DNA of 64,000 nt, from contig JANQRY010000003.1 of assembly GCA_028284345.1 (NCBI GenBank), forward strand, positions 62,001 to 126,000, written 5' to 3'. Every line of letters starts with the position of its first letter. Position 1 is the first letter of the stretch. Shown here piece by piece: positions 33,811 to 64,000 of this stretch. The DNA comes from Hyphococcus sp. (GTDB lineage: Bacteria > Pseudomonadota > Alphaproteobacteria > Caulobacterales > Parvularculaceae). Both the position numbers and the translations under genes were made by a program. The notes below the pieces were generated by a model. That model was not told where the DNA came from. It ran no database searches and saw only the letters and a list, made by a program, of their open reading frames with translations.

Positions 33811-33836
33811 CCGTCTCTGCTCACGGAGTATTTTCA

Positions 33837-35778: not shown

Positions 35779-35838
35779 CAGGCGTTCGGCGTCCGTCTAC
35801 GCGCCTATGCGCAAATCACCTATCTGTGGAGCAACAAT

Positions 35839-36438: not shown

Positions 36439-36466
36439 CAAAGAAGCGTCGTCAGGCCCGACGCGT

Positions 36467-36536: not shown

Positions 36537-36557
36537 TCGGTAAACCTTAAGGCCGCC

Positions 36558-37855: not shown

Positions 37856-37871
37856 CAGGCTTGTTCCAACA

Positions 37872-39871: not shown

Positions 39872-39942
39872 AAACTCCGGTCTCTTCTGATTGTCGCCAA
39901 AGAGATTACTCCCAAAGCTTGACGCGACAATTCAACGACGTC

Positions 39943-39966
39943 ACTCTATTCTCGATATTTGAGAGT
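39943..39966. promoter_or_regulatory. candidate IclR operator in the mhpF/iclR gap
   Basis: ACTCT (39943-39947) and AGAGT (39962-39966) form an inverted repeat spaced by 14 AT-rich bases, and TCTC/GAGA repeat inside it. It lies just before the AGGAGGA site of the IclR gene and about 70 bp before mhpF on the other strand. IclR regulators usually sit divergent to their target operon. The match to any published IclR consensus is weak. Confidence 0.35.
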
Positions 39967-39984
39967 AAAGGAGGAGGGCTGGAC

Positions 39985-40731: not shown

Positions 40732-40874
40732 TGACCAGCCCTTCTACAACACAACCCGCCGCAACCTTGCGGCGGTTTGAAAGCCCCATGGCGCGGCTTT
40801 TCACGATACAGTCCGCGATGCGGGAAGGCCGGCAAATCGTTGTCCGCCGCATCATTCGCCGCGGGAACGGCTGA
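40731..40874 (+). CDS. possible 47-aa coupled ORF between iclR and nrtS-like gene
   Basis: Its ATG shares one base with the IclR stop (TAATG) and its TGA shares one base with the next ATG (TGATG), so the three frames form a stop-start chain. The peptide is basic in its second half (RRIIRRGNG) and has no membrane helix or known motif. It may exist mainly to carry ribosomes to the downstream gene. Confidence 0.35.
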   Translation: MTSPSTTQPAATLRRFESPMARLFTIQSAMREGRQIVVRRIIRRGNG

Positions 40875-41131
40875 TGACGCGGAAAAAATACCCGCCGAAC
40901 CATCCCGTTTCCGCATTGCAAACGGCGCTCTCGGGGCGTTACGTGCAAAGAGCGTTCGTGGTTGCGGTGCTTGTCGGGACGATCCTCAACGCCATCAATC
41001 AGGGAGACGTCATTGTCGCCGGCGACGGCGTCGCCTGGCTCAAATTCGCCTTGACCTATTGCGTGCCGTTTTGCGTTTCAACATTTGCCAGTTGGACGGC
41101 GATTATGGAGAACGGACAACGCAACGACTGA
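40874..41131 (+). CDS. NrtS-like nitrate/nitrite transporter
   Basis: 85 aa. RYVQRAFVVAVLVGTILNAINQGD followed by LKFALTYCVPFCVSTFASW gives two membrane helices with the conserved INQGD and LTYxVPxxVS pattern of the NrtS family, small proteins shown in a cyanobacterium to move nitrate and nitrite. (The helix stretch is at residues about 22-70.) It is translationally coupled behind an IclR regulator inside an aromatic cluster, 18 kb from the nitrate operon, so its link to nitrogen is unclear. Confidence 0.7.
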   Translation: MTRKKYPPNHPVSALQTALSGRYVQRAFVVAVLVGTILNAINQGDVIVAGDGVAWLKFALTYCVPFCVSTFASWTAIMENGQRND

Positions 41132-41163
41132 CGAAACGCGACAGCGCCCGCCACGGATGGGGA

Positions 41164-42024
41164 TCAGTCCTGCGTAACGGTGTATCGGATCTTCGAATTC
41201 GGCCGACCGATCACTTTAATCGTCAACGCCGAAGAGCCGTCGTCCTCCGGCCACGCATCGCCCGCGCCGTCCTGCAGCATCCTTAGCGCCATGTCTTCAT
41301 AGGCGTCTAACAACGCCGGCTGATAGCGCTCGGCCACATAAGCCAGCGCCTTGCGTGAAACACCGGCGATGCTGTCGACGACAATGCGGGCCATGGCCGA
41401 CGCGTCCCGGGCCTGACTTGCTTGGCGCAGTTCTGGAAACCGGCTGGCGAGCGGATAAGGCGGCGACTCGCCTTCCGCCTCCCGTAACTGCCTGAAAAGC
41501 GCGATGCGTTCGAGAAGCCCGTCAATCGTTTGCACGACTCTCGGCCCGGAATATTGACACAGTAACGTCACGAGCCGTCGAAACGCCAGCTGGCGGCGGA
41601 AGATCCGGCGTCTCGTCGGCGCCGACGACTCGCCGTCGGCCCCGGCCAACCGTTCGATCAAATCGATCCGGTATTGGATGCGCTCAACGTCCTTTTCACT
41701 GAAAAGTCCGTCGCCGACCGAAATCGCCGCCGCCGCGTTGACGACCAGCATCGCGCAGACCTGTTCCATTTCAGTCGGCGAAAAGGTGGCGACCCGCCCG
41801 CGCTGGTTGGTTTCCGCCTCGATCAGGCCCTCGCGCTGCAACATCCGCAACGCCTCGCGCACCGGCCCCCGGCTGATCTCGAATTCCGTGGCCAGTTGCA
41901 CCTGCGAGAGCGGCTGCCCGCTCTTGACCGCGCCCGACAGGATCATCCGCCGGATCCGCCGATACACGGACATGACGTTTTCTCGGGGCGCGGATAGCTC
42001 AGAAGTGGAGACAGAAACACTCAT
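41164..42024 (-). CDS. GntR family transcription regulator
   Basis: 286 aa. GntR winged helix at residues about 15-85 (LSQVQLATEFEISRGPVRE, LQREGLIEAE), then a helical effector domain. The tail beyond residue 250 is longer than usual. It is divergent from the TonB receptor operon at 42133, and the gap carries alternating AAGTGT/ACACTT half-sites, a likely operator array for this protein. It is distinct from the GntR at 32129 in sequence and in the motif near its gene. Confidence 0.85.
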   Translation of the reverse strand: MSVSVSTSELSAPRENVMSVYRRIRRMILSGAVKSGQPLSQVQLATEFEISRGPVREALRMLQREGLIEAETNQRGRVATFSPTEMEQVCAMLVVNAAAAISVGDGLFSEKDVERIQYRIDLIERLAGADGESSAPTRRRIFRRQLAFRRLVTLLCQYSGPRVVQTIDGLLERIALFRQLREAEGESPPYPLASRFPELRQASQARDASAMARIVVDSIAGVSRKALAYVAERYQPALLDAYEDMALRMLQDGAGDAWPEDDGSSALTIKVIGRPNSKIRYTVTQD

Positions 42025-42072
42025 AAGGTCATCATATTGAAAAAAGTGGATGCATCAACGGAAAATATGTTG

Positions 42073-42099
42073 ACACTTTTCAATCAAGTGTGCACACTT
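42073..42099. promoter_or_regulatory. AAGTGT/ACACTT operator array before receptor operon
   Basis: Half-sites ACACTT (42073-42078), AAGTGT (42086-42091) and ACACTT (42094-42099) alternate. The last two form a perfect 14-bp palindrome AAGTGTGCACACTT; the first two form a perfect 6-bp inverted repeat over 7 bases. A weaker AAGTGG lies at about 42044. The array is in the gap between divergent GntR and TonB receptor genes, overlapping a TTGACA (42070-42075) -35-like hexamer. Confidence 0.6.
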
Positions 42100-42132
42100 T
42101 AGAAAAAGGTTAAAAAACCATAGGTGAGGGAA

Positions 42133-44448
42133 ATGACTAAAAAAACCATTCTCGCACAGGGCGCGTCCCTGTTTGCTATTGCGCTATCGCTTGGCGTTAC
42201 TTCGACCGCGGGGGCTCAGGACGACGAAAGCGCGGCGTCGCAGCGATCAAGCAGCGCGCGCGACGTCATTACGGTGACCGCGCAAAAACGCGAAACCACG
42301 CTGCAGGATACGGCGATCGCGATTTCCGCCTTTTCCGGGGGCTTGTTGGAGGATCGCGGCATCGACGATCTGTCCAATCTGCAATCCTATATTCCCAACC
42401 TGCACGTCGGTCAGGAGCAGGACGGTTTCCGCATCGCACTACGGGGCGTCGGGATTCAAGGAACGACGAGCATCACCGACCCAGGCGTCGCGTTTTATAT
42501 CGACAATTTATATATCCCGCGCCCGACAGGCGGCAGCGCGATCTTTTACGACCTCAATCGGATCGAGGTTCTGCGGGGGCCCCAAGGCACGCTTTACGGC
42601 CGAAACGCCACGGGCGGCGTCATCAACGTCATCTCGCAGGAACCTGAACACGAATTCGGCGGCAAGATCGGCTTCACCTATGGAAGCCGTGATCTCATCG
42701 AAGGGCGCGGCGTTTTAAATCTGCCGCTCACTGATGTAGCGGCCGCCCGCTTCTCCATCGTTCGGACGGAGGAAGACGGATATCTGGAAAATCTGTCAAC
42801 GCAGCCAGGAACGAGCGACTTACATGGCACCGACGGCGATTTGACGATCCGCGGCCAATTGTTGATCGAACCGAGCGACGACCTGAAAATCCTGCTTTCG
42901 TCCACCTATAGCGATCTCGACGGCACGGGCGCGCCCCTGAAATATGTCGAGCGCAATATCGGGGGGCCGCCGCCGACACGAGCGCTGCTGGGAACGCTTC
43001 CGCCAGACCTCACTGATCGGCGGCAAATTTTCAACGACAGCCCGACGTTTAACGACACGGAAACGATATCAGCGTTTGCGCGTGTCGAAAAAAGTTTCGA
43101 GTTTGTCGACGCCTTCCTGCAGGTCGGCGGTTTGTGGCAGGAAACGGACTTGCTGCAGGACGCGGACGGGTCGGACGTGCCCGTCGCCACATTCGGCAAG
43201 CAGTCTGAAAATGATGCCTACAGCGTGGAGTTTCGTCTGTCGTCGAATCACGACGGGCCGCTCGAATGGCTGGCGGGCCTCTACTATTTCACCGAAGACA
43301 CGTATATTGGCCGGGTCGTCACGCTGAACGGGTTGGTCTTCCCGCCCCCGCCGGCGCCGCCCTCAGGCGTTCTTATCAATCTGCCGAACTTTGCGCTGGA
43401 CGAGTTCGGCGAAAGCTCGACAATCGGCGGGTTTGCGTCGGCGACCTATTCGCTGTCGGATGACATCCGCGTGACGGGCGGCGTTCGGTATACCGCCGAC
43501 AAAAAAGGCGGATCGAACGAGACATTCTCGGTATTCGGCCAGCCGCTGCCCCCGCCCGTCGGGCCTCTTGAGCGAAAATTCGATCAGGTTACCTGGAAAG
43601 GCGGCCTGGAATACGACGCGGCGGAAAACGTTCTGCTCTACGCCAATGTCTCCTCCGGCTATAAAGCTGGCGGCTTCAACATTTCCGGCGGCGCGGCGCC
43701 GTACGATCCTGAAGAACTGATCGCATACGAGATCGGCATGAAGTCGAGCCCGCTTGACGGTCGCGCGCAGTTCAACGTCGATGCGTTTTACTATGATTAT
43801 AAAGACCTGCAGCTGTCGGCGGTTGTCCCGATCGGCGGCGTGCCGCAACAATTCGTAACCAACGCCGCGGCGACAACCGTCTACGGCGTAGAATTGGTCG
43901 GTCTTTACGAACTCACCGACGCGCTGCTCTTCACCGCGAGCTACTCTTATATCAATGCTGAATTTGACGAGTATTGTAATCGCGATGACCGGTTTGGAGA
44001 CCCGGGGCCGATGGACCTCAGTGAAGGCGCCTGCGCGTCTCTGGACCCGGCGCCCCCTCTTGCTCCCCTCGGCCTCGCCGATTTGAGCGGCAATATGCTG
44101 CCCTTTGTTTCGGAGCACACCCTCACGGCCGGACTGGAATACACGGCGGACTTGAATGGCGCGGGTGAAATTATCGCCGCTGTCAATACGTCGTGGCACA
44201 GCGAGTACTTTGTCCGGGAATTCAACGATCCGGTCGTTGACAGACAGGGACCCAATACAAAAACCGACATTACGGTCACCTATCTGCCGCCGAGTTCCGG
44301 ATTCTCCCTGACGGGATATGTCACGAATCTCGAAAATGAATCGGTGCTGAACAACAATCAGGTCAGCCCCGGTTTTGTCGGCACCAGCGCCGTTCAGACA
44401 TACAGCAGACCTCGCAGCTGGGGCATTCGTGTCGACTATGAATTCTAA
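42133..44448 (+). CDS. TonB-dependent outer-membrane receptor, paralog of 26330-28588
   Basis: 771 aa. Signal peptide to about residue 28 (VTSTAGA-QDD), TonB box-like DVITVTAQKRETTLQDT, plug with VLRGPQGTLYGRNATGGVINV, barrel ending IRVDYEF. It matches the other receptor almost segment for segment (GIDDLSNLQS, LHVGQEQDGF, GGSAIFYDLNRIEVLRG). Start ATG at 42133 is three codons after a GTG that is also possible. It heads an operon with a TAXI-like lipoprotein, an ABM-type protein, a flavin monooxygenase and an MFS permease, so the ligand is probably the aromatic substrate. Confidence 0.93.
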   Translation: MTKKTILAQGASLFAIALSLGVTSTAGAQDDESAASQRSSSARDVITVTAQKRETTLQDTAIAISAFSGGLLEDRGIDDLSNLQSYIPNLHVGQEQDGFRIALRGVGIQGTTSITDPGVAFYIDNLYIPRPTGGSAIFYDLNRIEVLRGPQGTLYGRNATGGVINVISQEPEHEFGGKIGFTYGSRDLIEGRGVLNLPLTDVAAARFSIVRTEEDGYLENLSTQPGTSDLHGTDGDLTIRGQLLIEPSDDLKILLSSTYSDLDGTGAPLKYVERNIGGPPPTRALLGTLPPDLTDRRQIFNDSPTFNDTETISAFARVEKSFEFVDAFLQVGGLWQETDLLQDADGSDVPVATFGKQSENDAYSVEFRLSSNHDGPLEWLAGLYYFTEDTYIGRVVTLNGLVFPPPPAPPSGVLINLPNFALDEFGESSTIGGFASATYSLSDDIRVTGGVRYTADKKGGSNETFSVFGQPLPPPVGPLERKFDQVTWKGGLEYDAAENVLLYANVSSGYKAGGFNISGGAAPYDPEELIAYEIGMKSSPLDGRAQFNVDAFYYDYKDLQLSAVVPIGGVPQQFVTNAAATTVYGVELVGLYELTDALLFTASYSYINAEFDEYCNRDDRFGDPGPMDLSEGACASLDPAPPLAPLGLADLSGNMLPFVSEHTLTAGLEYTADLNGAGEIIAAVNTSWHSEYFVREFNDPVVDRQGPNTKTDITVTYLPPSSGFSLTGYVTNLENESVLNNNQVSPGFVGTSAVQTYSRPRSWGIRVDYEF

Positions 44449-45556
44449 AATTGACGATTGGCCCTGCTTTGCGCAAACCGCATCTGAGTCTGCAAAAAGC
44501 AGGGCCCGCGTCCATTTTGGCGATTTAATTAGTATAAAGACAGTATCCTATTGTATTGCTACGGTTGTGGTCGCAGCAATAATCACCGGATGCGCCGCGT
44601 TGGAGCAATCCTCCCGCTCGAGTCACGCGACGCATCCGGCTCTATCCATTTATTCGCCCGCCGCGCCGCCAATCGTCCTGTGGTCGATAAACGAAGAGAT
44701 CGGCGAGACGTTGGAGACTTGCGGCGCCGGGCGCGATGTCGAAACAATTGCGCAAGCCCTGCCGGACTCCGTCAACGCCATCGGAAAAATGCCTGATCGC
44801 GCCGCGCATCTTCCAATCGTCACAACCATCGATTTTTCGCCAGCGGTAAAAGGAACGGGCCCCGCCTGGCACGCTTACGAACGGCCGCATGAAGAGTTGA
44901 AATTTGTCGCCAGTCTTTACGAAGTCGGCATCGGGGTCATGGTTTTCGATGAAAACATCCGCACGCCGAACGACCTGATCGGAAAAACAATCGCCTTGCC
45001 GCGCCGACCCAGCAGTTTGCGGGTTATGGCCGAAGCGTTGCTTCGCGACGGCTGGAACATTCTCGACAAGGTTGAGGTGTTGGACGATCTGGGCCCACGA
45101 GACATCGCCGCCGCCATTGCCGAAGGACGCGTTGACGCCACCACCTGGAATATGATGGTGGAAACGCCTGACGGCATGCGCCCTCTCCTGCCGGGCGCCA
45201 TGAAGGCCGGCCGCTGGCTGTCCGTCGATGAAACGCACATTGACCAAATCAACGCCAAAAACGATTTCACAACGGCCGCCGTCGTCATTGACGTCGAAAG
45301 CGCCTCGTCTGAGAGCGAAACGCTCGAAAACGCGACGCTGCTGTCTTTCCGGCAGGCGCTGGCGGCATGGTCGGCGACCGACGACAAGCAGGTTGAAGCC
45401 ATTCTTCAATGTCTCGAAACGGCGCATGGGGCGCGCGCCGAGAGCGCCGTCGTCATGAATGACTGGCCCGGTCTTGCGGAAACGACCGTCCACCCGGCGG
45501 CGCTCGAATTCTACCGCCGATCAAACCCCGACTTTTTAAAGAACGCCGAATACTAA
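44438..45556 (+). CDS. TAXI-like periplasmic-binding lipoprotein, paralog of 25273-26340
   Basis: 372 aa. Lipobox IITGC gives lipid Cys52. Mature sequence LSIYSPAAPPIVLW, LPIVTTIDFSPA, SLYEVGIGVMVFD, LRVMAEALLRDGW, GRVDATTWNMM lines up with the lipoprotein at 25273 along its length. As there, the ATG overlaps the last 11 nt of the TonB receptor gene and the polar segment before the lipobox is long (about 35 residues). No permease partner is present. Proposed role: periplasmic acceptor for the receptor's ligand (inference). Confidence 0.75.
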   Translation: MNSKIDDWPCFAQTASESAKSRARVHFGDLISIKTVSYCIATVVVAAIITGCAALEQSSRSSHATHPALSIYSPAAPPIVLWSINEEIGETLETCGAGRDVETIAQALPDSVNAIGKMPDRAAHLPIVTTIDFSPAVKGTGPAWHAYERPHEELKFVASLYEVGIGVMVFDENIRTPNDLIGKTIALPRRPSSLRVMAEALLRDGWNILDKVEVLDDLGPRDIAAAIAEGRVDATTWNMMVETPDGMRPLLPGAMKAGRWLSVDETHIDQINAKNDFTTAAVVIDVESASSESETLENATLLSFRQALAAWSATDDKQVEAILQCLETAHGARAESAVVMNDWPGLAETTVHPAALEFYRRSNPDFLKNAEY

Positions 45557-45585
45557 CGCGGCCGTTGCATCAGAAAGGACGAAAC

Positions 45586-45918
45586 ATGAATCACGAGCAG
45601 TTCGCGATTTGGGCCACGATGGAGGCTTTGCCCGGCAAAGAGGATGACGCCCGTGAATTTTTACGGGAAGCGGCGCGCCGCCTCGGAAGCGAGCCCGGAA
45701 CGACGAATTTTTACGCCCTTGAAATCGGCGACGGCAAGTTCGCCATCTTCAACATGTTTATTGACGAGGCCGCGCTGCAGGCGCACGTCAATGGCGACGT
45801 CGCGAACTGGGTTCGTGACTCTCGGGAAGGCCTTTTTGTCAGGGATTACGATATCACTCGGACGGAGGTTATCACGACCACGCTTGCTGAAATGGCGCAG
45901 GCGAAGCAGGCGGTATAA
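45586..45918 (+). CDS. antibiotic-biosynthesis-monooxygenase (ABM) domain protein
   Basis: 110 aa ferredoxin-like dimeric alpha/beta barrel: FAIWATMEALPGKEDDAREFL, GTTNFYALEIGDGKFAIFN and a final helix, typical of the ABM/quinol monooxygenase group. AAAGGA stands before the ATG at 45586. Members can oxygenate quinols or act as small stabilising enzymes; context (next gene is a flavin hydroxylase) suggests handling of a hydroxylated aromatic intermediate. Confidence 0.75.
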   Translation: MNHEQFAIWATMEALPGKEDDAREFLREAARRLGSEPGTTNFYALEIGDGKFAIFNMFIDEAALQAHVNGDVANWVRDSREGLFVRDYDITRTEVITTTLAEMAQAKQAV

Positions 45919-45951
45919 AAGGTCAGAAGCGTCGTAGCGGGAAACGGAAAC

Positions 45952-47634
45952 ATGTCAAACTCAGCTTTGGACTGCGAAGTCCTGGTCGTAGGCGCGGGTC
46001 CGACAGGACTTATCGCCGCGGACCTTCTCAAAAGATCCGGCGTTGACGTTCGCATTGTCGAAATGCGCGCCGAAGCCACGCGCGAGTCTCGCGCCTTTGC
46101 GGTACAGGCGCGCACGCTCGAACTGATGCAGTCTATGGGGCTGGCCGACCAAATGCTGGCGAACGGCGTGATGACAACCGCCGTCCAAATGCACGTTCAA
46201 GGCAAGTTTGTCGGCGGGATGAACACGGACCGCGCCAATGCGCCGGACACTCCGTTCCCCTATATCCTCATGATCGCGCAATCGGAAACCGAGCGAATTC
46301 TCATCGAAGACCTCGCCGCGCTCGGCGTCGAGGTGGAGCGCGGATTGGAAGCGACGGAGCTGCACCAGGACGCAGACGGCGCCGTCGCAACGCTGCGAGA
46401 CGACGCCGGCGCGACATCGACAATTCGATGCGCTTACATCGTCGGCGCCGACGGGTCGCGAAGCGTCGTGCGCGAGGCCGCAAATATTGATTTCAGCGGC
46501 GGCACTTATGCGCAGAACTTCCTGCTCGCCGACTGCAAGGTTGACTGGCCGCTCGACCATCATCATTTCCGCGTCTTCATGAACGGTCGGCGCACCGGTT
46601 TGTTCCTGCCGCTGGGCGGCAGCAACCTTTCCCGCGTCATGGCGACGGACCTCACCTCTGATATAGACGATAACGCCAGCACGCCGCTGCCGCTCGATCT
46701 GACAGAGCTCCAGGACGCGTTCGAAAAGTCGATTTGCTTGCCTGCGAAACTCTCCGATCCCATTTGGGTGACCCGGTATCGCGCGCATCACCGCGCCGCG
46801 GAAAAGTATCGCGCCGGGCGCTTCTTCCTCGCCGGCGACGCCGCGCATATTCACTCGCCAGCCGGCGGACAAGGCATGAACACCGGATTGCAGGACGCGG
46901 CCAATCTCGCCTGGAAGCTCGGGGCCGTCCTGCGCCGCGGCGCTGACGACGAACTGCTCGACAATTATCACGACGAGCGCAAACCGGTGGGCGAAATGTT
47001 GTTGCGCACGACCGGCAAACTCTTCACCGCCGCTGCGGGCCAGTCCGGCTGGAAAGCATCGATCCGCGATCTCGCTGCGAAAACGTTTTTGCCGATTGTA
47101 ACCCGGGCGTCAAAATTCCATCGCAAGGGGTTTGGCAACGTTTCCGAACGCAACATCAGCTACGATCTCAGCCGCTATGTCGGCGAAGGGCCGCGCTGGC
47201 CAAGCGAGGGGCCGCGCGCTGGCGAACGCGCGCCGAACGTGCGCATTAACAATGACCTGGACATGTTTGAACTCCTCAAAGGATATCAGTTCAACATCGT
47301 CGCGTTCTCTCGCCTGCCATTGAGTTCAGACGAGTCCGGCAAAGTGCGCGAACGCCTCAAAGCGCTTACGGACGAATTTTCCTTTGCCGGTTCGCATCTC
47401 ATCGCGAGAACCGCGTTCGGCTTTGATGAGAACTGTATCTTTGCCAACGGCCCGGACGTTTTCGATTGTTACGGGGTCGACAGTGCTGAGAACAACCAGG
47501 TCGTTTACCTCATTCGCCCGGACAATTATGTTGCATGGCGCATGACGGGCTTTGATTTTGACGCCTGCCGCCGCTTCCTGAAAGAATTCGGCGCGCACGC
47601 GACGTCGGCGCAACGACAAATCGCTGCGGAGTGA
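45952..47634 (+). CDS. class A flavoprotein aromatic hydroxylase, MhpA-like
   Basis: 560 aa. FAD motif GAGPTGLIAADLL near residue 13, ESRAFAVQARTLELM about 45, DG motif IVGADGSRSVVREA about 163 and GD motif FLAGDAAHIHSPAGGQGMNTG about 295, followed by a C-terminal thioredoxin-like domain (about 440-555) ending in RPDNYVAWRM, as in MhpA and phenol hydroxylases. It adds a hydroxyl to a phenolic ring using NAD(P)H and O2, which would prepare the catechol for one of the extradiol enzymes. Third gene after the TonB receptor. Confidence 0.9.
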   Translation: MSNSALDCEVLVVGAGPTGLIAADLLKRSGVDVRIVEMRAEATRESRAFAVQARTLELMQSMGLADQMLANGVMTTAVQMHVQGKFVGGMNTDRANAPDTPFPYILMIAQSETERILIEDLAALGVEVERGLEATELHQDADGAVATLRDDAGATSTIRCAYIVGADGSRSVVREAANIDFSGGTYAQNFLLADCKVDWPLDHHHFRVFMNGRRTGLFLPLGGSNLSRVMATDLTSDIDDNASTPLPLDLTELQDAFEKSICLPAKLSDPIWVTRYRAHHRAAEKYRAGRFFLAGDAAHIHSPAGGQGMNTGLQDAANLAWKLGAVLRRGADDELLDNYHDERKPVGEMLLRTTGKLFTAAAGQSGWKASIRDLAAKTFLPIVTRASKFHRKGFGNVSERNISYDLSRYVGEGPRWPSEGPRAGERAPNVRINNDLDMFELLKGYQFNIVAFSRLPLSSDESGKVRERLKALTDEFSFAGSHLIARTAFGFDENCIFANGPDVFDCYGVDSAENNQVVYLIRPDNYVAWRMTGFDFDACRRFLKEFGAHATSAQRQIAAE

Positions 47635-47661
47635 GCGGCGCTTCTCACAGTCGGGACCCGC

Positions 47662-48996
47662 ATGGCTAATCCCGCGCGGGTCAGCGCCGCCCTGGATGAC
47701 GCGCCTTTTACGGCCTATCGCAGTCTTGCGATCGGTCTTTGCATTTGCGTCGCCATAATTGACGGGTTTGATTTCGTCGCCATGGGCGTTGTCGCGCCGA
47801 TGATGATGCGCGACCTTCAATTCTCCCACGCAGAGCTTGGCGCGATCCTGGCGCTGACGCAGATCGGCGCCGCTATCGGCGCCCTTGCGCTCGGCAAGGC
47901 CGCCGACCGGTTCGGCCGCAAACGCCTTATCATCATTTCGCTGTTGCTGATCGCGCTGTTTACATGGCTGACAGCGGTCGCTTCGTCATTTGAAGAATTG
48001 CTGGTTGTTCGCTTCCTAGTCGGCCTCGCCCTCACCGGCGCCCTGCCCGCTACGCTGGCGCTGACGTCGGAACTGGCGCCGGCGCGTTTTCGCGCGACCA
48101 TCGTGTCTCTCGCCGTGGCGGGCTTTCCCATGGGCGCGGCGATCGGCAGTCTCGCCGGCGGCGTCATCGCGGAAACCTACGTCTGGCAGGCGGTCTTTTA
48201 TGTCGGCGCCGCGCTGGCGCTGGCGCTCGCTGCTGTTATTTATGTCGCCTTGCCGGAATCGCCGCGTTTTCTCGCCCTTAACGACAATCGCGGGCAACGT
48301 ATGAAGGCGGCAATGGCGCGCCTTACGCCCCGCGTCAATGTCGACACGCTTTGGCTGCCAATATCGAAGGACAAAGCGCCCCATTCGGATGTCGCGCAGG
48401 CGCGGACGCCCGCATCGATCCGCGCGCTTTTCGCCAGGGAATTTTCAACGCCGACGATCATGTTGTGGACGCTGCTATTCTGCAGCGGCGTTCTTTCCAA
48501 CGTGACGCTAGTCTGGCTGCCGACGATCTTCGACCAGGCGGGACTATCAGTCGGCTATGCGTCGCGCATTGTCGGGGCCATCAATATCGGCGCGGTTCTG
48601 GGCATGGCGTCGGCAGGACGCATTCTTGAAAGCGTCGGCCCGCGCCTTACCATTGGCGCGGCGTTTCTCGTTGCCGCCGTTGCAACCGTTCTCCTCGGAT
48701 CTGCGCACGCAGCCGGTTTCGCGCCGGCCATCGCCGCTATCATGGGGTTCTTTCTCGGCATCACTACATCGGCCGGTTACGCCTTGTCGGCGCTGATCTA
48801 TCCGAGCGCCATTCGGTCGACCGGGGTTGGCGGGGGCGCCGCGGCGCTGCGGATCGGAACCGTCGTCGCGCCCGTCATCATGCCGGCGCTTCTTGCTTTC
48901 GCGCTTTCCGTGCAATGGACGTTTGTCGCCATCGCCTTCGTCCCGTTGCTCGCCGGAATATTGGCCAGCCGGTTTACCATCGCTTACGACCGATAG
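47662..48996 (+). CDS. MFS aromatic acid:H+ symporter (AAHS family)
   Basis: 444 aa with twelve predicted membrane helices. DGFDFVAMGVVAP in helix 1, GKAADRFGRKRLI in the first loop and the equivalent loop after helix 7 are AAHS hallmarks (PcaK, BenK, MhpT types). It brings the aromatic acid across the inner membrane, complementing the TonB receptor in the same operon. Last gene of the 42133-48996 operon; an 8-bp stem lies just after it. Confidence 0.88.
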   Translation: MANPARVSAALDDAPFTAYRSLAIGLCICVAIIDGFDFVAMGVVAPMMMRDLQFSHAELGAILALTQIGAAIGALALGKAADRFGRKRLIIISLLLIALFTWLTAVASSFEELLVVRFLVGLALTGALPATLALTSELAPARFRATIVSLAVAGFPMGAAIGSLAGGVIAETYVWQAVFYVGAALALALAAVIYVALPESPRFLALNDNRGQRMKAAMARLTPRVNVDTLWLPISKDKAPHSDVAQARTPASIRALFAREFSTPTIMLWTLLFCSGVLSNVTLVWLPTIFDQAGLSVGYASRIVGAINIGAVLGMASAGRILESVGPRLTIGAAFLVAAVATVLLGSAHAAGFAPAIAAIMGFFLGITTSAGYALSALIYPSAIRSTGVGGGAAALRIGTVVAPVIMPALLAFALSVQWTFVAIAFVPLLAGILASRFTIAYDR

Positions 48997-57423: not shown

Positions 57424-58284
57424 TCAGTCCGTCCATTCAGGAAACGCCGAAACCTTCCCGACATGTTTCGGTTCATGCTGGATGATGAATGTCGCGTCGA
57501 GCGTTTCCACCAGTTTTTTCAATCGGTCTATGGACGCCAGCGTGTCGGCGCGATCGACATTGAAGACCGGCGACAGTTCTTCCTCATAGTTCCGGATACG
57601 ATGTACGGCGTCGCCGCTCAGGATGACGTTTCCCTTGTCGCGCAAACGGACGAGCAGGCTTGAATGGCCCGGCGTATGCCCGCGCGTCGAAAGCATGATC
57701 ACGCTGCCGTCGCCAAAAATATCGAGATCGCCCGACACCGACGAAACATCGCCGCCGCCGGATATCCAATGGTCAAAATCGCCTCTTCTGAAGATATGCC
57801 CCTTGGGCGTGGGCTCTGCTGCAATGACGTCCCAGTCGCCCTTGCCGATCAATAAAGTTGCATGCGGAAAATCCTTAAGCTGGCCCGTGTGGTCCGGGTG
57901 ATAATGGCTAATTCCAATTCTGGTGATGCGCGCGGGATCCAACCGGCCATCCGCCAATTGCGTCAAGACAGACGCTTTCAGCGTATCGGAAATCGGGTCT
58001 GTGTCATTCAGCGACGCGCCGAGATATTCCAGCCTCAAGCCGGTATCCCACAGCAAATACTCCTCGCCGTGCCGTATCAGGTAACAGCTCTCGACCAACG
58101 GAAATGACTGGCCGGCGTATGTCATCGTATCGGAAAACCAGGCGCCTCTGTTGACCCTGATGGTTCCGCAATCGAGACGCGAGATCGCCAGATTGTCAGG
58201 CAGCGCAGGACTCGCCGGCTGCGCCGCTGCGGCGACCTGGCCGAACAAAAAAAATATCAGGAGAGAATACTTGATCATATTCAT
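57424..58284 (-). CDS. exported metallo-beta-lactamase-fold hydrolase, AHL-lactonase-like
   Basis: 286 aa with a signal peptide (MNMIKYSLLIFFLFGQVAAAA). The zinc motif SHYHPDHTG (HxHxDH) is at about residue 125, then STRGHTPGHSS and LSGDAVH, and a C-terminal IIQHEPKH. The layout is that of N-acyl-homoserine lactonases (AttM/AiiA group), most of which are cytoplasmic; here secretion to the periplasm is predicted. A lactone or ester of an imported molecule is the likely substrate. GGAGGAA precedes the ATG. Last gene of the TonB/DJ-1 operon, 33 nt after PepSY. Confidence 0.85.
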   Translation of the reverse strand: MNMIKYSLLIFFLFGQVAAAAQPASPALPDNLAISRLDCGTIRVNRGAWFSDTMTYAGQSFPLVESCYLIRHGEEYLLWDTGLRLEYLGASLNDTDPISDTLKASVLTQLADGRLDPARITRIGISHYHPDHTGQLKDFPHATLLIGKGDWDVIAAEPTPKGHIFRRGDFDHWISGGGDVSSVSGDLDIFGDGSVIMLSTRGHTPGHSSLLVRLRDKGNVILSGDAVHRIRNYEEELSPVFNVDRADTLASIDRLKKLVETLDATFIIQHEPKHVGKVSAFPEWTD

Positions 58285-58317
58285 AGTCGCTTCCTCCATG
58301 TATCAACGGAGACCATC

Positions 58318-59361
58318 TCAACCCACGCGGGCGCGCCATCGCAGAACGTAACTAATTAATCCGGTCAGCCATAATCCGCAGGCGCCGAGGGCTGTCAGCA
58401 CAAGGAGGAATTTGTAGAGCGGCCACGCGCCCTCCCCGCCATGCAGGACGCGCGCGGCGTTCCTACGGATAACGAAAATCCCATCGCCGTCGGCGAAACG
58501 CTCTTGATAGCGTCCGTCGGCGCCCCACTCATAGGTCACCCGGCCCTCGGGGCGCAGATTGGCGATCAGCATTTTCCGCCCTCTCCCTTCATAGAAGACG
58601 ACGCTTTCGAGGCCTTCGGCGCCGGGACGCATCAGTGCGCGCGTCATCAGCAACGACGACGCCGAAGAAACGTCGGCATAGGCGTCGGTCAACGGGCTAT
58701 CCAATATCTGTACGGAAGATTTTTCAATCTCGGCGATGCGCAGTTCCGCCTCCGCCGGGGCGCCGATCAGCCACCCCGTCGCGCCATAAAACACGACAAA
58801 CGCGCCAAAGGTGAGGCCCAGGCTGACATGGGACCGCCTCATCTCGCCTCTGAGGGGGCGGCGCGGGTTTGGAAAAATTTGCAGCCGAAAGCGTTTCAGT
58901 CCCGGCGCCGCGATAATCAGACCCAGCATCACCATAAGCATGGCGATGATGCCGCACCATACGACAAACATGCGGGCGTCGGGCCCTGACAGGGTCAAGC
59001 CGGTGTGTACGCGATAGACAAACCCGTACAGCCCGGCGACCTCGTCGGCGGCGAGCCAGGCGGCCAGGCCGGGCTCAAGATCGTCAGGCGACAGCCGGCT
59101 TAGGTCCGTCGCATAGCATCCGTTTTTATCCGTCGGGAAGGCGACAAAAGCGGGGTTTGTCTCGGCGGCAATGGCGTTTAACAGCGTCGCCGCGCGCGTG
59201 ACTTGTTCATTCTCGCTTAAAGACGAACCATCCTCGGCGCAAACGGGTTCAGGCGCGCCAAGAGCCACCAGGGCGACGCCGGACAACGCGATAAGGATAA
59301 GAAAGGCGGCGCAGGCCGCGCCCAGCCAGTGATGCAGCGATTTTAAAAGCCACAAAAACAT
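58318..59361 (-). CDS. PepSY-associated transmembrane protein
   Basis: 347 aa. Four predicted helices: about 15-35 (LGAACAAFLILIALSGVAL), 130-155 (WCGIIAMLMVMLGLIIAAP), 180-200 and 318-340. A periplasmic domain lies after helix 1 and another between helices 3 and 4. It belongs to the same family as 5926-7056 though diverged. Known relatives work with siderophore receptors in reducing or releasing iron. Its place in an operon with a TonB receptor supports a ferric-ligand or similar metal role. Confidence 0.82.
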   Translation of the reverse strand: MFLWLLKSLHHWLGAACAAFLILIALSGVALVALGAPEPVCAEDGSSLSENEQVTRAATLLNAIAAETNPAFVAFPTDKNGCYATDLSRLSPDDLEPGLAAWLAADEVAGLYGFVYRVHTGLTLSGPDARMFVVWCGIIAMLMVMLGLIIAAPGLKRFRLQIFPNPRRPLRGEMRRSHVSLGLTFGAFVVFYGATGWLIGAPAEAELRIAEIEKSSVQILDSPLTDAYADVSSASSLLMTRALMRPGAEGLESVVFYEGRGRKMLIANLRPEGRVTYEWGADGRYQERFADGDGIFVIRRNAARVLHGGEGAWPLYKFLLVLTALGACGLWLTGLISYVLRWRARVG

Positions 59362-59383
59362 AAACTGATGATGCGCGCCTCAG

Positions 59384-59884
59384 TCATTGGCTTTTCAACT
59401 GGCTGCCGCGGTAAATTTCCTTGTGCGACTGATACGCGCCCTCGATTTCAAGGGTAATCGTAATCGGGCGTTCTTCGATATTTAAAAAATACCAGCCATG
59501 ATAGCCGTCAAACGGCGCTTCGAATTCCCCCGTCTTTGTCGGCGCTTCGCCTTCCTCATAAGAGTCTGGCGGGGGCGTCTCTTCGCTTCCGGCGTCCCCA
59601 TGAAAATCATAATAGACCCCGCCATTCTCCGTATCGCCGGCGACGGTCCATGTATATTTCATGGACGATCCTTCATCCAGAAGCGCCTTGTATTCGACTT
59701 CCTCCAGGTAATCGAGATTGATGGCGATCGTGTCGGATTTGGTCTGTTCGGCGGAAGGAGGCGTCTCGCTCTGCGCCGTAGCATCACTTTCAGGCGCCAC
59801 GCCAGTCCGTTCGGGTTCGCTCCCGCAGGCGGCGCCGAGCGCGAAGACTGATGCTACAAGTCCGAGCTTCAAAATATCATTCAT
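59384..59884 (-). CDS. acidic lipoprotein of the receptor/PepSY operon
   Basis: 166 aa. Lipobox ALGAAC gives lipid Cys20, followed by a low-complexity linker rich in Glu, Ser and Pro. The folded part has YKALLDEGSSMKYTW, GVYYDFHGDAG and FDGYHGWYFLN, resembling small anchor-type proteins found next to metal or PepSY genes. GGAG precedes the ATG. Function unknown; it should sit on a membrane facing the periplasm. Confidence 0.7.
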   Translation of the reverse strand: MNDILKLGLVASVFALGAACGSEPERTGVAPESDATAQSETPPSAEQTKSDTIAINLDYLEEVEYKALLDEGSSMKYTWTVAGDTENGGVYYDFHGDAGSEETPPPDSYEEGEAPTKTGEFEAPFDGYHGWYFLNIEERPITITLEIEGAYQSHKEIYRGSQLKSQ

Positions 59885-59929
59885 AAAAGGCGCTCCTAAA
59901 CATAAAGACCGGCCGTCATCTCTGCGGCG

Positions 59930-60409
59930 CTATTCAAAGAACGGTATCAACCGCCCCGCGACGATAACCACAACCCATGTGAGGAGTGAAAAAACGGCGA
60001 TGATCTTTGCGGCGGCGCCGGCAGGCTGGTTCCCGGTGTTGGATTCTATCTTGGGCAGCAACACGCGCTCAAAATACACCGCGTTCAGCAAGGCGAAAAC
60101 GACCAGCGCCATTTTCATCTGAAAAACCGGATTGGGAAAATACCGGAACGGATCGCCAAATACGAACAGAACGCCGGTTATCGCGTTAATCGCAAAGCCG
60201 ATCACGGCGAATATGGCGAAGTCATGGGTTTTTCCGAGCGGCGTGTTGTTGGCGACGCCAAGCACGCGCAGGTCGACGACGATCAGGGATCCGAGCAGCA
60301 GGCACAGCCCGACAAAATGCAGAATCTCAAGCAGCGGCCAGGTCCAGTCCGGCCCCATGACGAGCTTGTTGACGATGCTGCTTTCCATCCATGTCATGAT
60401 CGCATTCAT
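59930..60409 (-). CDS. four-helix membrane protein, paralog of the next gene upstream
   Basis: 159 aa with four membrane helices. It shares with 60426-60881 the helix-1 pattern HxVGxxxLxG followed by R-x-LGVA, a DUF6644-like membrane layout and the closing AGRLI. The conserved histidine in helix 1 could bind haem or metal. The pair may form a heterodimer in the inner membrane with the PepSY protein. No experimentally known function. Confidence 0.72.
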   Translation of the reverse strand: MNAIMTWMESSIVNKLVMGPDWTWPLLEILHFVGLCLLLGSLIVVDLRVLGVANNTPLGKTHDFAIFAVIGFAINAITGVLFVFGDPFRYFPNPVFQMKMALVVFALLNAVYFERVLLPKIESNTGNQPAGAAAKIIAVFSLLTWVVVIVAGRLIPFFE

Positions 60410-60425
60410 GGCCGCGGCCTTTCCC

Positions 60426-60881
60426 TCAGATATAGGCGATGAGCCGTCCGGCGATAAGCGCGCCGACCCAGGCCAGCACCGCGGCGGCGGCGACGGTTCG
60501 ATGGCTATTCGTTACGTTCCCGGCGCCGTTGATGCAGACCCGGGCAAGATGAGTCGTCAGGGCAAGGCCAATCAAAATCAGAATGATCTTGATGCGAAAG
60601 GGCCAGCTTGGCCACATTTCGGTGGCCGCGCCGAGAAACAAGGCAATGCCGGAAAGAAAGTTCAAAACAAATCCCGCCTGCGCAAGCCGCATAAATACGC
60701 CAAGACTTGTAACGGGCACGCCGGTAGCAACGCCAAGGGCGCGGAAGCTGAACATCAACGCAACGCCGACCAGCATAGCCATGCCAACCGCGTGCGTTGC
60801 CAGAACGATCGGGTATCCCCAAGGAGATATGGCGACCCAGGCGCCAATCGGCGAGTCTTCAAGCCAAATCAGAAAATCCAT
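60426..60881 (-). CDS. four-helix membrane protein, paralog of the next gene downstream
   Basis: 151 aa with four membrane helices (about 20-48, 62-85, 90-112 and 125-148). THAVGMAMLVGVAL and FRALGVATGVP match LHFVGLCLLLGSLI and LRVLGVANNTP in the neighbour, and both end in AGRLI. The two genes are 16 nt apart, a clear tandem duplication. DUF6644-like; role unknown. Confidence 0.72.
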   Translation of the reverse strand: MDFLIWLEDSPIGAWVAISPWGYPIVLATHAVGMAMLVGVALMFSFRALGVATGVPVTSLGVFMRLAQAGFVLNFLSGIALFLGAATEMWPSWPFRIKIILILIGLALTTHLARVCINGAGNVTNSHRTVAAAAVLAWVGALIAGRLIAYI

Positions 60882-60935
60882 AGCGCGAGGCTTCCCCGAC
60901 CGTCAGATATGCTTTCCAGCGCGAACGCCCGTAAG

Positions 60936-61385
60936 CTATTTCATCATTTCCGTAATCGGCGCATACGCCATCGCGTTTGTTTTCAAAACAAACTCTGTAT
61001 TCGGAATTTCCGCCTCGCCGCGTTTCACAGCCGCGCCGAGCGCCGCCAGCGCCTCATCCGGATGGCCTGCAATCTCGTAAACAATCATGTATTTAAAATC
61101 AGGATCAGGACGGCCGCTTCTCGACTGCATCCGGAACCGCTGGCCGCGGACAAACTCAGGCAGCTTTACAATGTCGGCCATATGAGCGTCATACCAGCTG
61201 TTGAACGCCTCTTCTTTTCCGTCCACCGGATTTGCAAACACGATGAACAGGCTGTCGCCTTCCGATATATAGCCGCTGCCCGACGGCTGATCGTTGGTCG
61301 CCGCCTCTTCAGCACAAGCCGATAGAACGGGCGCGAAAAGCGCCGCCATGAAAGCGAATCCGAACGTTCTTATGAAACCAACCAT
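60936..61385 (-). CDS. exported lipoprotein with dimeric alpha/beta-barrel (EthD/DUF4286-like) domain
   Basis: 149 aa. Signal with lipobox VLSAC. The mature part contains IVFANPVDGKEEAFNSWYDAHMADIVKLPEFVRGQRF (described here by its NP-x-G-x-E-x-x-FNxWYxxHxxD pattern) as in small DUF4286/EthD-like proteins that act as enzymes or stabilising factors on reactive oxygenated molecules. An exported form is unusual. It lies between the DJ-1 genes and the membrane pair. Substrate unknown. Confidence 0.7.
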   Translation of the reverse strand: MVGFIRTFGFAFMAALFAPVLSACAEEAATNDQPSGSGYISEGDSLFIVFANPVDGKEEAFNSWYDAHMADIVKLPEFVRGQRFRMQSRSGRPDPDFKYMIVYEIAGHPDEALAALGAAVKRGEAEIPNTEFVLKTNAMAYAPITEMMK

Positions 61386-61398
61386 GATAGCCCTTCGA

Positions 61399-62241
61399 TC
61401 AGTTGAATCTTTTCGCCGCCTCTAGCGCGGCGTCGCGAACCATCCCGTCCATTCCCGTGCGGCCCGATTTGACCGCACTGGTCAGTTCTTCTCCGGCCTC
61501 CTGCGGCGTGCCGGCGGAAAATGGCGGCTGCGGAGAATATTCGATAATCAACTGCGCCCGTTTGGCCTCGTCTTCGCCGCGCAGCTCCGCCCCGATCGTG
61601 AGCGCGAAATCAATGCCCGCCGTGACACCGCCGCCGGTGTAGCGGTTGCGGTCAACGACGACCCGCTCATCGACATAAGTGGCGCCGAGAAGCGGCAATA
61701 TATCCGTCAGGGCCCAGAGCGTCGTAGCCTTGTAACCGTTGAGCAAGCCGGCGGCGGCCAGGATTAGGCTGCCGGTGCAAACGCTTGTAACGTATTTCGC
61801 CCGCTCGCCGCGGTCGGCCATAAAATCAAGAACCTGATCGTCTTTCATACAGTCGATGGTTCCGAACGTGCCCCCCGGCGCGAACAGGATATCGAGGTCT
61901 TTCGGACATTCGTCGAATGTCGTCGTCGGCGGGATCGCAATGCGGGTATCCGTGATGCAGGGCGTTCTGTCTTTCCAGACAAGATGGATTTCACACCCAA
62001 GAATATTCAGAACCGTCTGCGGGCCGATAAGGTCGAGCAACACCATTTTCGGATAAACGAGCATCGCCACTTTCGGCTTCGGACCCGGATAGCGTTGGGG
62101 CATGCGCATTTTCCCGTCCTTGTCTCTCACATGAGCATGCGCCGACGCCCCCATCGCCGTCGCCGCCAGGGCGCCGGACGTGAGGGCTTGCAAAAGAATG
62201 CGTCGTTTATGGTCGATTGCGCTTTTGTCCGCTTTCGTCAC
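61399..62241 (-). CDS. Tat-exported DJ-1/PfpI protein, isonitrile-hydratase-like (copy 2)
   Basis: 280 aa. Twin-arginine signal (KRRILLQ, hydrophobic stretch, cleavage near ASA-HAH). The DJ-1/PfpI core has LLDLIGPQ (Asp used in isonitrile hydratase), DILFAPGGTFGT, nucleophile Cys in SVCTGSLILAAAGLL and RYTGGGVTAGIDFAL. Start is GTG at 62241, 8 nt after GGAG; a TTG seven codons upstream is less likely. InhA-type enzymes hydrate isonitriles to N-formyl amines, but other GlxA-like proteins have unknown roles. Export by Tat is uncommon for this family. Confidence 0.8.
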   Translation of the reverse strand: MTKADKSAIDHKRRILLQALTSGALAATAMGASAHAHVRDKDGKMRMPQRYPGPKPKVAMLVYPKMVLLDLIGPQTVLNILGCEIHLVWKDRTPCITDTRIAIPPTTTFDECPKDLDILFAPGGTFGTIDCMKDDQVLDFMADRGERAKYVTSVCTGSLILAAAGLLNGYKATTLWALTDILPLLGATYVDERVVVDRNRYTGGGVTAGIDFALTIGAELRGEDEAKRAQLIIEYSPQPPFSAGTPQEAGEELTSAVKSGRTGMDGMVRDAALEAAKRFN

Positions 62242-62254
62242 AATACTTCTCCGT

Positions 62255-63109
62255 TCAACCAACGCGGCGCGTTGCTATCGAAATCGCACGTTCATTATAT
62301 TCCGGCAACATGCTCGCAACCAGGTTCGCGGTTTCCGGCCACGCCTTTTCCGGCACGCCGGAATTAAATTCCGGCTGCGGATCGTATTCGGCAATAAGCT
62401 GCAATGTTCTGGCGTAGTCGGGGCCGCGGAAGACGGTGGTCATATGCAACCCGAAATCTATGCCGGCGGTTACGCCCGCCCCCGTCACTCTGTTGCGGTC
62501 CTTGACGAGACGTTCGTTGACCGGGGTTGCGCCAAAGGACGGCAGGCACGCATCGCGGACTTTCCAGTGACCCGTGGCGCGGTATCCGTCGAGCAGCCCG
62601 GCCGCGCCGAGGATCAACACGCCGGTGCAAATGCTGCCGATGTATTTCGCCGATGGGCCGTGCTTCTGAAGAAAGGAGACATAGCGGTCGTCGTCCATCG
62701 CATCGAGCGTGCCAACGCCGCCGCCCGGCATGAACAAAAGATCGACGCCCTTTTCGATCTCCTCGAACGTCGCCGTCGGGACCAGCGTCACATTGCGGTC
62801 GCACAATACGGGGTCAGGCGTCGGCGACACGATGTCGACCTTGGCGCCCTTCATTGTCGCGAAGAAATACTGAGGGCCAAGGAGATCGAGCGCCGTCATC
62901 CCCGGATACGCTACAAGGGCGATTCGTTCCGATCCTTGAGGCTTGTGCCAATAATCGCCCGAAGGGTCAGGCCGTGGACCGGCCTTCGGGCTTGCAACGC
63001 CGGTCGGACAACTTTCCTCGGCCCGCGCCGCCGTTGAAACGCCGGCGGTCGATGCGCCGGCAAGGGACAATCCAGCAAACGTAACCCTGCGTCGACTTAT
63101 TGAACTCAT
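62255..63109 (-). CDS. Tat-exported DJ-1/PfpI protein, isonitrile-hydratase-like (copy 1)
   Basis: 284 aa. Signal SRRRVTFAGLSLAGAS with cleavage near ARA-EES, Tat type. Core motifs ALDLLGPQ, DLLFMPGGGVGT, nucleophile Cys in SICTGVLILGAAGLLDGYRAT and RVTGAGVTAGIDFGL parallel the next gene. The two proteins are clearly paralogs made by tandem duplication. The gene follows a TonB receptor gene, separated by a 12-bp stem hairpin at 63137-63168. Confidence 0.8.
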   Translation of the reverse strand: MSSISRRRVTFAGLSLAGASTAGVSTAARAEESCPTGVASPKAGPRPDPSGDYWHKPQGSERIALVAYPGMTALDLLGPQYFFATMKGAKVDIVSPTPDPVLCDRNVTLVPTATFEEIEKGVDLLFMPGGGVGTLDAMDDDRYVSFLQKHGPSAKYIGSICTGVLILGAAGLLDGYRATGHWKVRDACLPSFGATPVNERLVKDRNRVTGAGVTAGIDFGLHMTTVFRGPDYARTLQLIAEYDPQPEFNSGVPEKAWPETANLVASMLPEYNERAISIATRRVG

Positions 63110-63136
63110 TTACCGAAACCCTTGTTTGTATATGAA

Positions 63137-63168
63137 CAGTGCGGCGATCATCGCAAATCGCCGCACTG
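63137..63168 (-). terminator. strong hairpin between TonB receptor and DJ-1 genes
   Basis: CAGTGCGGCGAT (63137-63148) and ATCGCCGCACTG (63157-63168) pair over 12 bp with an 8-base loop. It begins about 20 nt after the receptor stop and ends 27 nt before the DJ-1 start. No T-run follows, so it may be a partial terminator or an mRNA stabiliser that makes receptor and downstream genes unequal. Confidence 0.6.
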
Positions 63169-63188
63169 ATGCAAGGTGTCAGACGGTA

Positions 63189-64000
63189 TTAGTAACGAAG
63201 TCGTGTCGTAATACCGATCGTTCGCGGCCGAAACGTCGTCTGGGCGATAAAGCCTGTATCGAAGGCGCAGCCCGCGAGCGACAAGTCCGCGTTAAAGGAG
63301 CAGTTTCGACGACCTGTGTTCGTCGCAACCGTCCGGTCGTCCTGTGAGTTCAAGACATTGTCGACAAAGAGGGACACATCCCAAGCCCCGGTGCGGAAGC
63401 CGGCTCGCATCGAGAGGTATTCCGTCGGCTCGGCAATGTAGACATCCGGGGAGAACCCGTTCGTGCCCGAGCCGAAACCACGGGGATAGTCGCCTGTGTA
63501 TTGGAAATCGGCGCGACCGTAAATTTCCAAGCCCGCCGAGACCGGCATCTCGAACTGCGCGCCCAGACGGAAGCTCAGATCAGGCACAGACGCCGCGTCC
63601 CCATCCCGAATGAAAAGGGTTTCAATGCCGCTAACTTGAAGCGTCAGTTCTTCAAAGGTCGCGTCGACGTAGGAGACAGCGCCGTTGAGCGTGACATAGT
63701 CATGGAGTTGAACGACCATTCCGACATCCACGCCTTGCGACGTCATGCTGGCGGCGTTCGCGATAAACGCTGACCGGCAGTTCAGACGGGCGTTAACCTG
63801 CGTGTCCTTCCATTCAACGCGATAGGCGCTCGCATCGATGGACACACGGCCGTCGAACGGCTGAAGCTTCGTACCGATCTCGTAACTCCAGACCGAATCC
63901 GACTCATAGGGAATAGCCGGGATATCGGGGAAGCCTAACGAAGCAAGCTCAGCGTCGCAGGCCGGGCCAATCGGCGCGGGCGCAACGCCGCCGGGACGGT
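63189..64000 (-). CDS. TonB-dependent receptor, C-terminal part (runs off the window)
   Basis: About 270 residues of the barrel end. VWSYEIGTKLQPFDGRVSIDASAYRVEWKDTQ-type strands (cited by pattern: YEIGTK then DASAYRVEW), LSFRLGAQFEMP, LSMRAGFRTGAWDVSLFVDNVLN and a final RPRTIGITTRLRY with aromatic end are typical. The 5' portion lies beyond base 64000. It is the first visible gene of the operon running to 57424. An in-frame Cys pair in the late barrel (NCSF, AGCAF) may form an extracellular-loop disulfide. Confidence 0.88.
   Translation of the reverse strand, partial: RPGGVAPAPIGPACDAELASLGFPDIPAIPYESDSVWSYEIGTKLQPFDGRVSIDASAYRVEWKDTQVNARLNCRSAFIANAASMTSQGVDVGMVVQLHDYVTLNGAVSYVDATFEELTLQVSGIETLFIRDGDAASVPDLSFRLGAQFEMPVSAGLEIYGRADFQYTGDYPRGFGSGTNGFSPDVYIAEPTEYLSMRAGFRTGAWDVSLFVDNVLNSQDDRTVATNTGRRNCSFNADLSLAGCAFDTGFIAQTTFRPRTIGITTRLRY

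Follow-up and report, generated by a model that had tools for sequence, protein, structure and literature searches.

What is the function of a compact nine-gene operon in which a TonB-dependent receptor gene is followed by genes for two DJ-1/PfpI proteins with twin-arginine translocation (Tat) signals? The operon lies at the end of a 64,000-nucleotide stretch of Hyphococcus sp. (GenBank assembly GCA_028284345.1, contig JANQRY010000003.1, positions 62,001 to 126,000 of the forward strand), which is referred to as the window and sits in a contig (C5) of a genome of 3.4 Mb. A first-pass annotation of the window had proposed that the operon takes up a foreign metallophore and dismantles it in the periplasm. 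Judging from gene content and conservation, metallophore uptake is probably not the operon's main role. The operon is probably the front end, in the outer membrane and periplasm, of an IclR-type catabolic cluster whose substrate would be a nitrogen-containing, probably catechol-like ring compound. It was read as catabolic because the conserved company of the receptor, the two DJ-1 proteins (DJ1A and DJ1B) and the first lipoprotein is catabolic. The nine genes, in 5′ to 3′ order, are as follows.

63189..64000, minus strand: TonB-dependent receptor, C-terminal part; groups with the Sphingobium subterraneum orthologue and catabolic-cluster receptors.
62255..63109, minus strand: DJ1A, a DJ-1/PfpI protein with a Tat signal, from the group of exported members linked to TonB receptors (Pfam, alignment, tree).
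61399..62262, minus strand: DJ1B, a DJ-1/PfpI protein with a Tat signal, placed in a second clade (Pfam, alignment, tree).
60936..61385, minus strand: first lipoprotein, predicted to fold as a dimeric alpha/beta barrel (EthD/ABM-like; structure model, orthologues).
60426..60881, minus strand: TM1, DUF6644-like membrane protein (alignment with DUF6644-type proteins).
59930..60409, minus strand: TM2, DUF6644 membrane protein related to CopD/DUF2214 (Pfam DUF6644, 4.3e-7).
59384..59884, minus strand: second lipoprotein, with sequence matches to "transmembrane anchor protein" genes of plasmids.
58318..59361, minus strand: PepSY_TM protein (Pfam PepSY_TM, 5.1e-20).
57424..58299, minus strand: lactonase-like hydrolase of metallo-beta-lactamase (MBL) fold, signal peptide by eye (Pfam Lactamase_B, 1.5e-16).

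The tight packing described in the first-pass annotation was borne out, with the same gene order on one strand and gaps of −8 to 79 bases: 79 from the receptor to DJ1A, −8 to DJ1B, 13 to the first lipoprotein, 54 to TM1, 16 to TM2, 45 to the second lipoprotein, 22 to the PepSY gene and 18 to the lactonase-like gene, with 351 bases to the following gene. Lipoboxes and signal peptides were assessed by eye rather than by a signal-peptide program. The receptor gene extends beyond the window end to the equivalent of position 65834 (L003:6189-8834), giving 881 amino acids from a TTG start; an internal start at L003:8750, giving 853 amino acids, is more plausible.

Upstream of the receptor, beyond the window and in the same direction, lie genes for a major facilitator superfamily (MFS) symporter, an ArgE-type M20 deacylase and a pair of PcaH/PcaG-like intradiol dioxygenase proteins. 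Beyond the dioxygenase pair follow a divergent IclR-type regulator, a beta-keto-acid cleavage enzyme (BKACE), a class III aminotransferase, a CoA-transferase, an SMP-30-like protein, named from its colinear plasmid relatives, and a DapA-like protein. The M20 deacylase (590 bits against 412) and the aminotransferase (641 against 485) exceeded their NCBIfam cutoffs, and the MFS symporter and BKACE fell below theirs.

The same row was found in S. subterraneum in the order of the window genome, with the IclR gene (65% identity) divergent from intradiol2 (48%), intradiol1 (62%), M20 (63%), MFS (70%), receptor (48%), DJ1A (55%), DJ1B (58%) and, directly 3′ of DJ1B, the lipoprotein (50%). The Sphingobium orthologues of the dioxygenase pair pass Pfam Dioxygenase_C. 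BKACE (73%), the aminotransferase (57%), the CoA-transferase (55%), SMP-30 (56%) and DHDPS (59%) stand 15-21 kb off, running as aminotransferase-BKACE and CoA-transferase-SMP-30-DHDPS, and genes for an aminotransferase, HPPD, FAH and a glutathione S-transferase (GST) start 3.7 kb behind the module. The PepSY protein, the second lipoprotein and the MBL hydrolase had no match (E 1e-6) in 80 kb around the Sphingobium copy, and a DUF6644 pair with a third exported DJ-1 stands about 14-16 kb before its receptor. The DUF6644 pair, the second lipoprotein, PepSY and the MBL hydrolase are outside the conserved row and may be lineage additions for periplasmic redox or metal handling. With S. subterraneum DSM 102255 as a named and deposited host, a vague operon becomes a testable pathway.

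A third copy of the pair was found in a Caulobacterales metagenome-assembled genome (L114), where DJ1A′ (L114:8690-9544, 56% in one comparison and 60% in another) and DJ1B′ (L114:9554-10366, 64%) stand in tandem and adjoin HPPD, HgmA, fumarylacetoacetase and GST-like genes; an exported lipoprotein relative (43%) is encoded 1.5 kb from DJ1B′ on the opposite strand. L114:12649-13695 also encodes a member of the fumarylacetoacetate hydrolase family that, by eye, carries a Tat-like signal; export would be unusual for such a protein.

Eight of the catabolic genes (IclR, the two PcaGH-like subunits, which are annotated as hypothetical proteins, BKACE, aminotransferase, CoA-transferase, SMP-30 and DapA-like) form a colinear row on a plasmid of Rhizobium leguminosarum and on a plasmid of Sulfitobacter (L203, NZ_CP071629.1; L204, NZ_CP025806.1), with amino-acid ATP-binding cassette or tripartite transporters nearby. 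Within the 18.6 kb covered on each plasmid, receptor, DJ-1, M20 and MFS had no match. The DJ-1 unit thus resembles a plug-in that adds outer-membrane uptake to a pathway also found in its absence. Counting the window-genome copy (L003:11436-19151), the eight-gene cluster was seen in four genera; no title among those listed in a literature search names its substrate.

The receptor-DJ-1 unit is rare: no further copy was found among 61, 248 and 297 other genomes, with a different gene and threshold each time. The first lipoprotein was found in 1 of 62 genomes in a family-wide search at 1e-10, the receptor in 1 of 249 in an order-wide search at 1e-150 with three candidates scored per genome, and DJ1A in 1 of 298 genomes of the S. 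subterraneum family at 1e-75, each time only in the genome of origin. In a separate test of 15 genomes, the first lipoprotein was present in two, both known holders of the DJ-1 pair. Plasmid searches with the receptor, the lipoproteins and DUF6644 returned no close copy, every match being below 60%. Receptor relatives in Sphingobium yanoikuyae adjoin S10 peptidases, and M20 relatives on plasmids offered no informative context in the 3 viewed of 249 records. DJ-1 similarity by itself was discarded as a guide to the operon, as 20 stretches fetched at DJ1A matches held none of the other eight genes (E 1e-4).

The receptor itself is contiguous with catabolic genes in both the window genome and S. 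subterraneum. A tree was built from hand-chosen receptors: eight belong to catabolic or enzyme-rich loci, two to the window genome and 32 are linked to DJ-1, and the Sphingobium orthologue was included. The window receptor joined its Sphingobium orthologue (100/100) among the catabolic-cluster receptors, and most DJ-1-linked receptors formed a separate group (29 rows, 98/96). The exceptions, all on long branches, were L059:20227 of the catabolic set on the DJ-1-linked side, and L154 and L178:11550 on the other. PDB matches of the window receptor were limited to the pesticin receptor and PhuR, and the entries nearest to the L037 receptor, from the DJ-1-linked group, were CntO, FoxA and FhuA.

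In the favoured catabolic pathway, the receptor would import the ring compound across the outer membrane, and DJ1A and DJ1B, as periplasmic thiol enzymes, would hydrate or hydrolyse it, with the alpha/beta-barrel lipoprotein perhaps handling an unstable intermediate. The MFS symporter would then move the product inwards, the M20 enzyme would strip an acyl group and the intradiol dioxygenase would open the ring, leaving the SMP-30 lactonase, BKACE, CoA-transferase, aminotransferase and DapA-like enzyme to complete the breakdown.

Both DJ-1 proteins matched Pfam DJ-1_PfpI (DJ1A 7.6e-28, DJ1B 5.2e-28). Since they are only 47% identical and are placed in separate parts of the tree, they are not recent duplicates. 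The first-pass annotation had described both as Tat-exported and as keeping the Cys and Asp of isonitrile hydratases, and the sequences agree with both statements: the twin arginines and the residues D77, C162 and T163 (DJ1B numbering) are invariant across 18 aligned exported DJ-1 sequences, and the Asp and Cys-Thr of both proteins align with those of isocyanide hydratase. In the Ralstonia enzyme, the corresponding residues are D22 of the DLxGP motif and the nucleophilic C121, and the Thr after the nucleophilic Cys has a role in isocyanide hydratase. DJ1A and its two orthologues have a second Cys in common, at a position where none was seen in the remaining exported proteins of the alignment.

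In a tree of 133 rows, DJ1A paired with DJ1A′ of L114 (100/99) inside the exported, receptor-linked part, a placing that depends on forks with 80-92% bootstrap support, the deepest fork being weak (52). DJ1B and DJ1B′ fell within a 15-row clade (100/94). The characterised isocyanide hydratase 3NON belonged to a separate 35-row clade (100/99), in which no row has a twin-arginine signal by our simple rule, and neither DJ1A nor DJ1B fell in that clade. Isonitrile chemistry of DJ1A and DJ1B is possible but unproven. Periplasmic stress defence, in which the DJ-1 proteins would be glyoxalases, deglycases or chaperones sharing an operon with the receptor by chance, draws on matches to the PfpI deglycase and DJ-1 glyoxalase III models, both below cutoff. 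It is improbable, as the best PDB match of both proteins was 3EWN (5e-65 and 2e-65), followed by isocyanide hydratase, with human DJ-1 far behind, and as DJ-1 genes recurrently pair with receptors and the DJ1A-DJ1B pair is retained in three genomes.

Among the remaining operon products, neither lipoprotein matched a Pfam family. The model of the first was a ferredoxin-like dimeric alpha/beta barrel with a mean predicted local distance difference test score of 58 (core about 60-82), and its top Foldseek folds were ABM-type monooxygenases, EthD and methylmuconolactone isomerases (best E 3e-3). The model of the second was poor and was set aside as evidence. TM2 also matched Pfam DUF2214 and CopD below cutoff; the sole Pfam match of TM1 was Aldedh, also below cutoff, and TM1 weakly matched DUF6644-type genes in loci L056 and L061. 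Tandem pairs of DUF6644-like membrane proteins were seen at window positions 59930-60881, at L056:12068-13088 and in Sphingobium (joined L195-L198 31682-32686). One His is common to the four aligned members from the window and Sphingobium, and it could ligate heme between both subunits.

The chains nearest to the lactonase-like hydrolase in the PDB are N-acyl-homoserine lactone (AHL) lactonases, an entry named as a beta-lactamase and 4-pyridoxolactonase, a likeness that would suit a quorum-quenching operon centred on this enzyme. Such an operon is hardly credible here, as its matches to curated models, AttM and 4-pyridoxolactonase among them, scored 96, 80 and 69 bits against cutoffs of 390, 325 and 375, passing no curated AHL-lactonase cutoff, and it is the last gene of the operon and unmatched in the Sphingobium region.

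The chief rival to the catabolic reading is the use of a foreign copper or iron metallophore, in which the receptor would import the chelate, the metal would be reduced by PepSY and the DUF6644 pair, and the ligand would be destroyed by the DJ-1 proteins and the lactonase. DJ-1 proteins were scored as exported when twin arginines (RR) were followed by a hydrophobic stretch, a rule that misses some members, such as that of L096, whose frame starts past the signal region. Set 1 comprised 42 DJ-1 proteins in 40 stretches, hand-picked from the better matches, partly for matches reaching the signal region, and set 2 comprised 89 in 80 loci, retrieved with an alignment in which receptor-linked members were abundant. 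Exported DJ-1 proteins recur beside TonB receptors: in set 1, a same-strand receptor lay within 4 kb of 15/19 RR against 1/23 non-RR proteins (Fisher 5e-7). The corresponding values in set 2 were 21/45 and 11/44 (p = 0.047), and several of these 11 non-RR proteins look miscalled. The receptor profile was built mostly from set 1 receptors; without them, the set 1 counts were unchanged and those of set 2 became 22/45 and 11/44.

Copper families (PCuAC, MbnP, SCO1, DUF2946 and CopD) were present within 8 kb in 20/34 loci with an exported DJ-1 and a receptor, 5/27 with an exported DJ-1 without a receptor and 4/52 non-exported loci, a count that excluded 12 non-RR DJ-1 proteins with a receptor and in which locus L119 may stand in two groups. 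The seeds came from six of the loci, with the SCO1 seed named by eye and one of the two DUF2946 seeds (L101) lacking a Pfam match. The contrast was 15/29 against 3/51 without the seed loci (p = 4.8e-6), 16/34 against 4/52 without DUF2946 (p = 4e-5) and 8/14 against 1/21 loci in set 1 alone. As the loci are related by descent, the p-values are a rough guide only. Pfam verified MbnP, CCP_MauG, PCuAC, CopD, DUF2946 and PepSY_TM in example loci. For the DJ-1 group as a whole, the link between exported DJ-1, TonB receptor and metal is thus upheld, with copper as the clearest case.

The module, in which a TonB receptor precedes an isocyanide-hydratase-like DJ-1 with a Tat signal, recurs with a tie to copper genes in Pseudomonadota and also in Acidobacteriota (at least locus L154), and a literature search found no paper on it, nor any title among those listed. 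If the exported DJ-1 proteins act on metal ligands, the module bears on how chelates are broken after uptake. Genes for relatives of PepSY, MbnP, MauG, PCuAC, SCO1, CopD or DUF2946 were seen within 8 kb in L037, L094, L108, L130, L134, L154, L158, L159 and L191. Genome G591 (L095, L096) has three DJ-1 genes in a span of some 27 kb. Each of them lies close to a TonB receptor, and two have an RR signal; one RR gene adjoins a tannase-like gene (by eye), and the third, without a signal in its frame, adjoins PepSY, MbnP and MauG.

Accordingly, the part of the metallophore proposal that stood is that receptor and exported DJ-1 belong together, often with copper genes, and a copper-importing receptor and a PepSY_TM protein are described as sharing an operon in Bordetella (PMC12914433, PMC13038864). 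For this particular operon the proposal is doubtful. The conserved unit sits with dioxygenases, deacylase and MFS genes, as the continuation of the dioxygenase operon, or with homogentisate genes; its receptor groups with catabolic-cluster receptors, apart from those of copper-linked DJ-1 loci, and its DJ-1 proteins lie outside the hydratase clade. PepSY, the second lipoprotein and the lactonase are unmatched around the Sphingobium copy, and the lactonase is far under all AHL-lactonase cutoffs.

Several observations weigh against the catabolic reading. The dioxygenase pair scored under the PcaG and PcaH cutoffs (111 against 126 and 173 against 296 bits), and therefore the ring that is cleaved is not named by the match. 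The DJ1A-DJ1B pair with the lipoprotein or its relative was seen in three genomes only. Homogentisate genes adjoin it in two of them; the window genome is the exception, and HgmA was not found there, so that the homogentisate link is lacking. A promoter-like site upstream of the receptor could put the unit under separate control, at a density of 7 such sites in 13 kb against 5.5 expected by chance. DJ1A belongs to the copper-linked DJ-1 group, and a metal role is kept open by Cus-type copper genes (by eye) near the cluster in the window genome and by copB and multicopper oxidase genes near the Sphingobium cluster.

In a further, unlikely reading, the two DJ-1 proteins would be periplasmic isonitrile hydratases, or would act on a comparable group that binds copper. 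The cluster would take up a tyrosine-derived, catechol-bearing copper ligand made by other microbes, remove the metal and consume the ligand. DJ-1 would then make an N-formyl compound, M20 would deacylate it and the intradiol dioxygenase would open the ring. If this is true, exported DJ-1 would more widely serve TonB copper loci as a standard step that destroys or releases the ligand.

Further genes were noted in both genomes, those of the window genome by eye. Window positions 30257-48996 hold a second catabolic region with Baeyer-Villiger monooxygenase-like, MhpA/B/C/D/E/F-like and extradiol-type vicinal oxygen chelate genes and another TonB receptor. At about 142-158 kb of C5 (L201 and the end of L003) there are an exported 'PDFSGLWLQDQGILFSDPTPKHHSGSHPGY' protein, YceI, a further PepSY-receptor pair, a DUF6644-like gene, a pyrroloquinoline-quinone-dehydrogenase-like gene and the Cus-type copper efflux genes. 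The 'PDFSGLWLQDQGILFSDPTPKHHSGSHPGY' protein also has a relative near the Sphingobium cluster, where copB and the multicopper oxidase gene stand just ahead of the IclR gene (joined L195-L198 37808-40923).

Compared with known systems, the closest enzyme of known reaction to DJ1A and DJ1B is Pseudomonas InhA/ICH (3NON), with which the Asp and Cys-Thr are shared; its clade lacks the RR signal that both proteins carry. The ThiJ/PfpI protein 3EWN, of unknown function and presumably from Pseudomonas syringae, lies like DJ1A within the receptor-linked group of the tree, and it has Cys-Ser where DJ1A and DJ1B have Cys-Thr. The Bordetella CrtA-CrpH system, compared by its description, also joins a receptor and a PepSY_TM protein in one operon; unlike it, the window operon has six genes between the two, and its PepSY is the one unmatched in Sphingobium. 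The terms "DJ-1" and "PfpI" are absent from the main text of the CrtA paper (PMC12914433), whereas the window operon has two DJ-1 genes. DdvT of Sphingobium sp. SYK-6 (PMC6874591), compared by its description, is a TonB receptor for a ring compound that is tied to the breakdown of that compound; unlike DdvT, the window receptor is followed by two exported DJ-1 proteins and a conserved lipoprotein and belongs to an intradiol cluster of the PcaGH-like kind.

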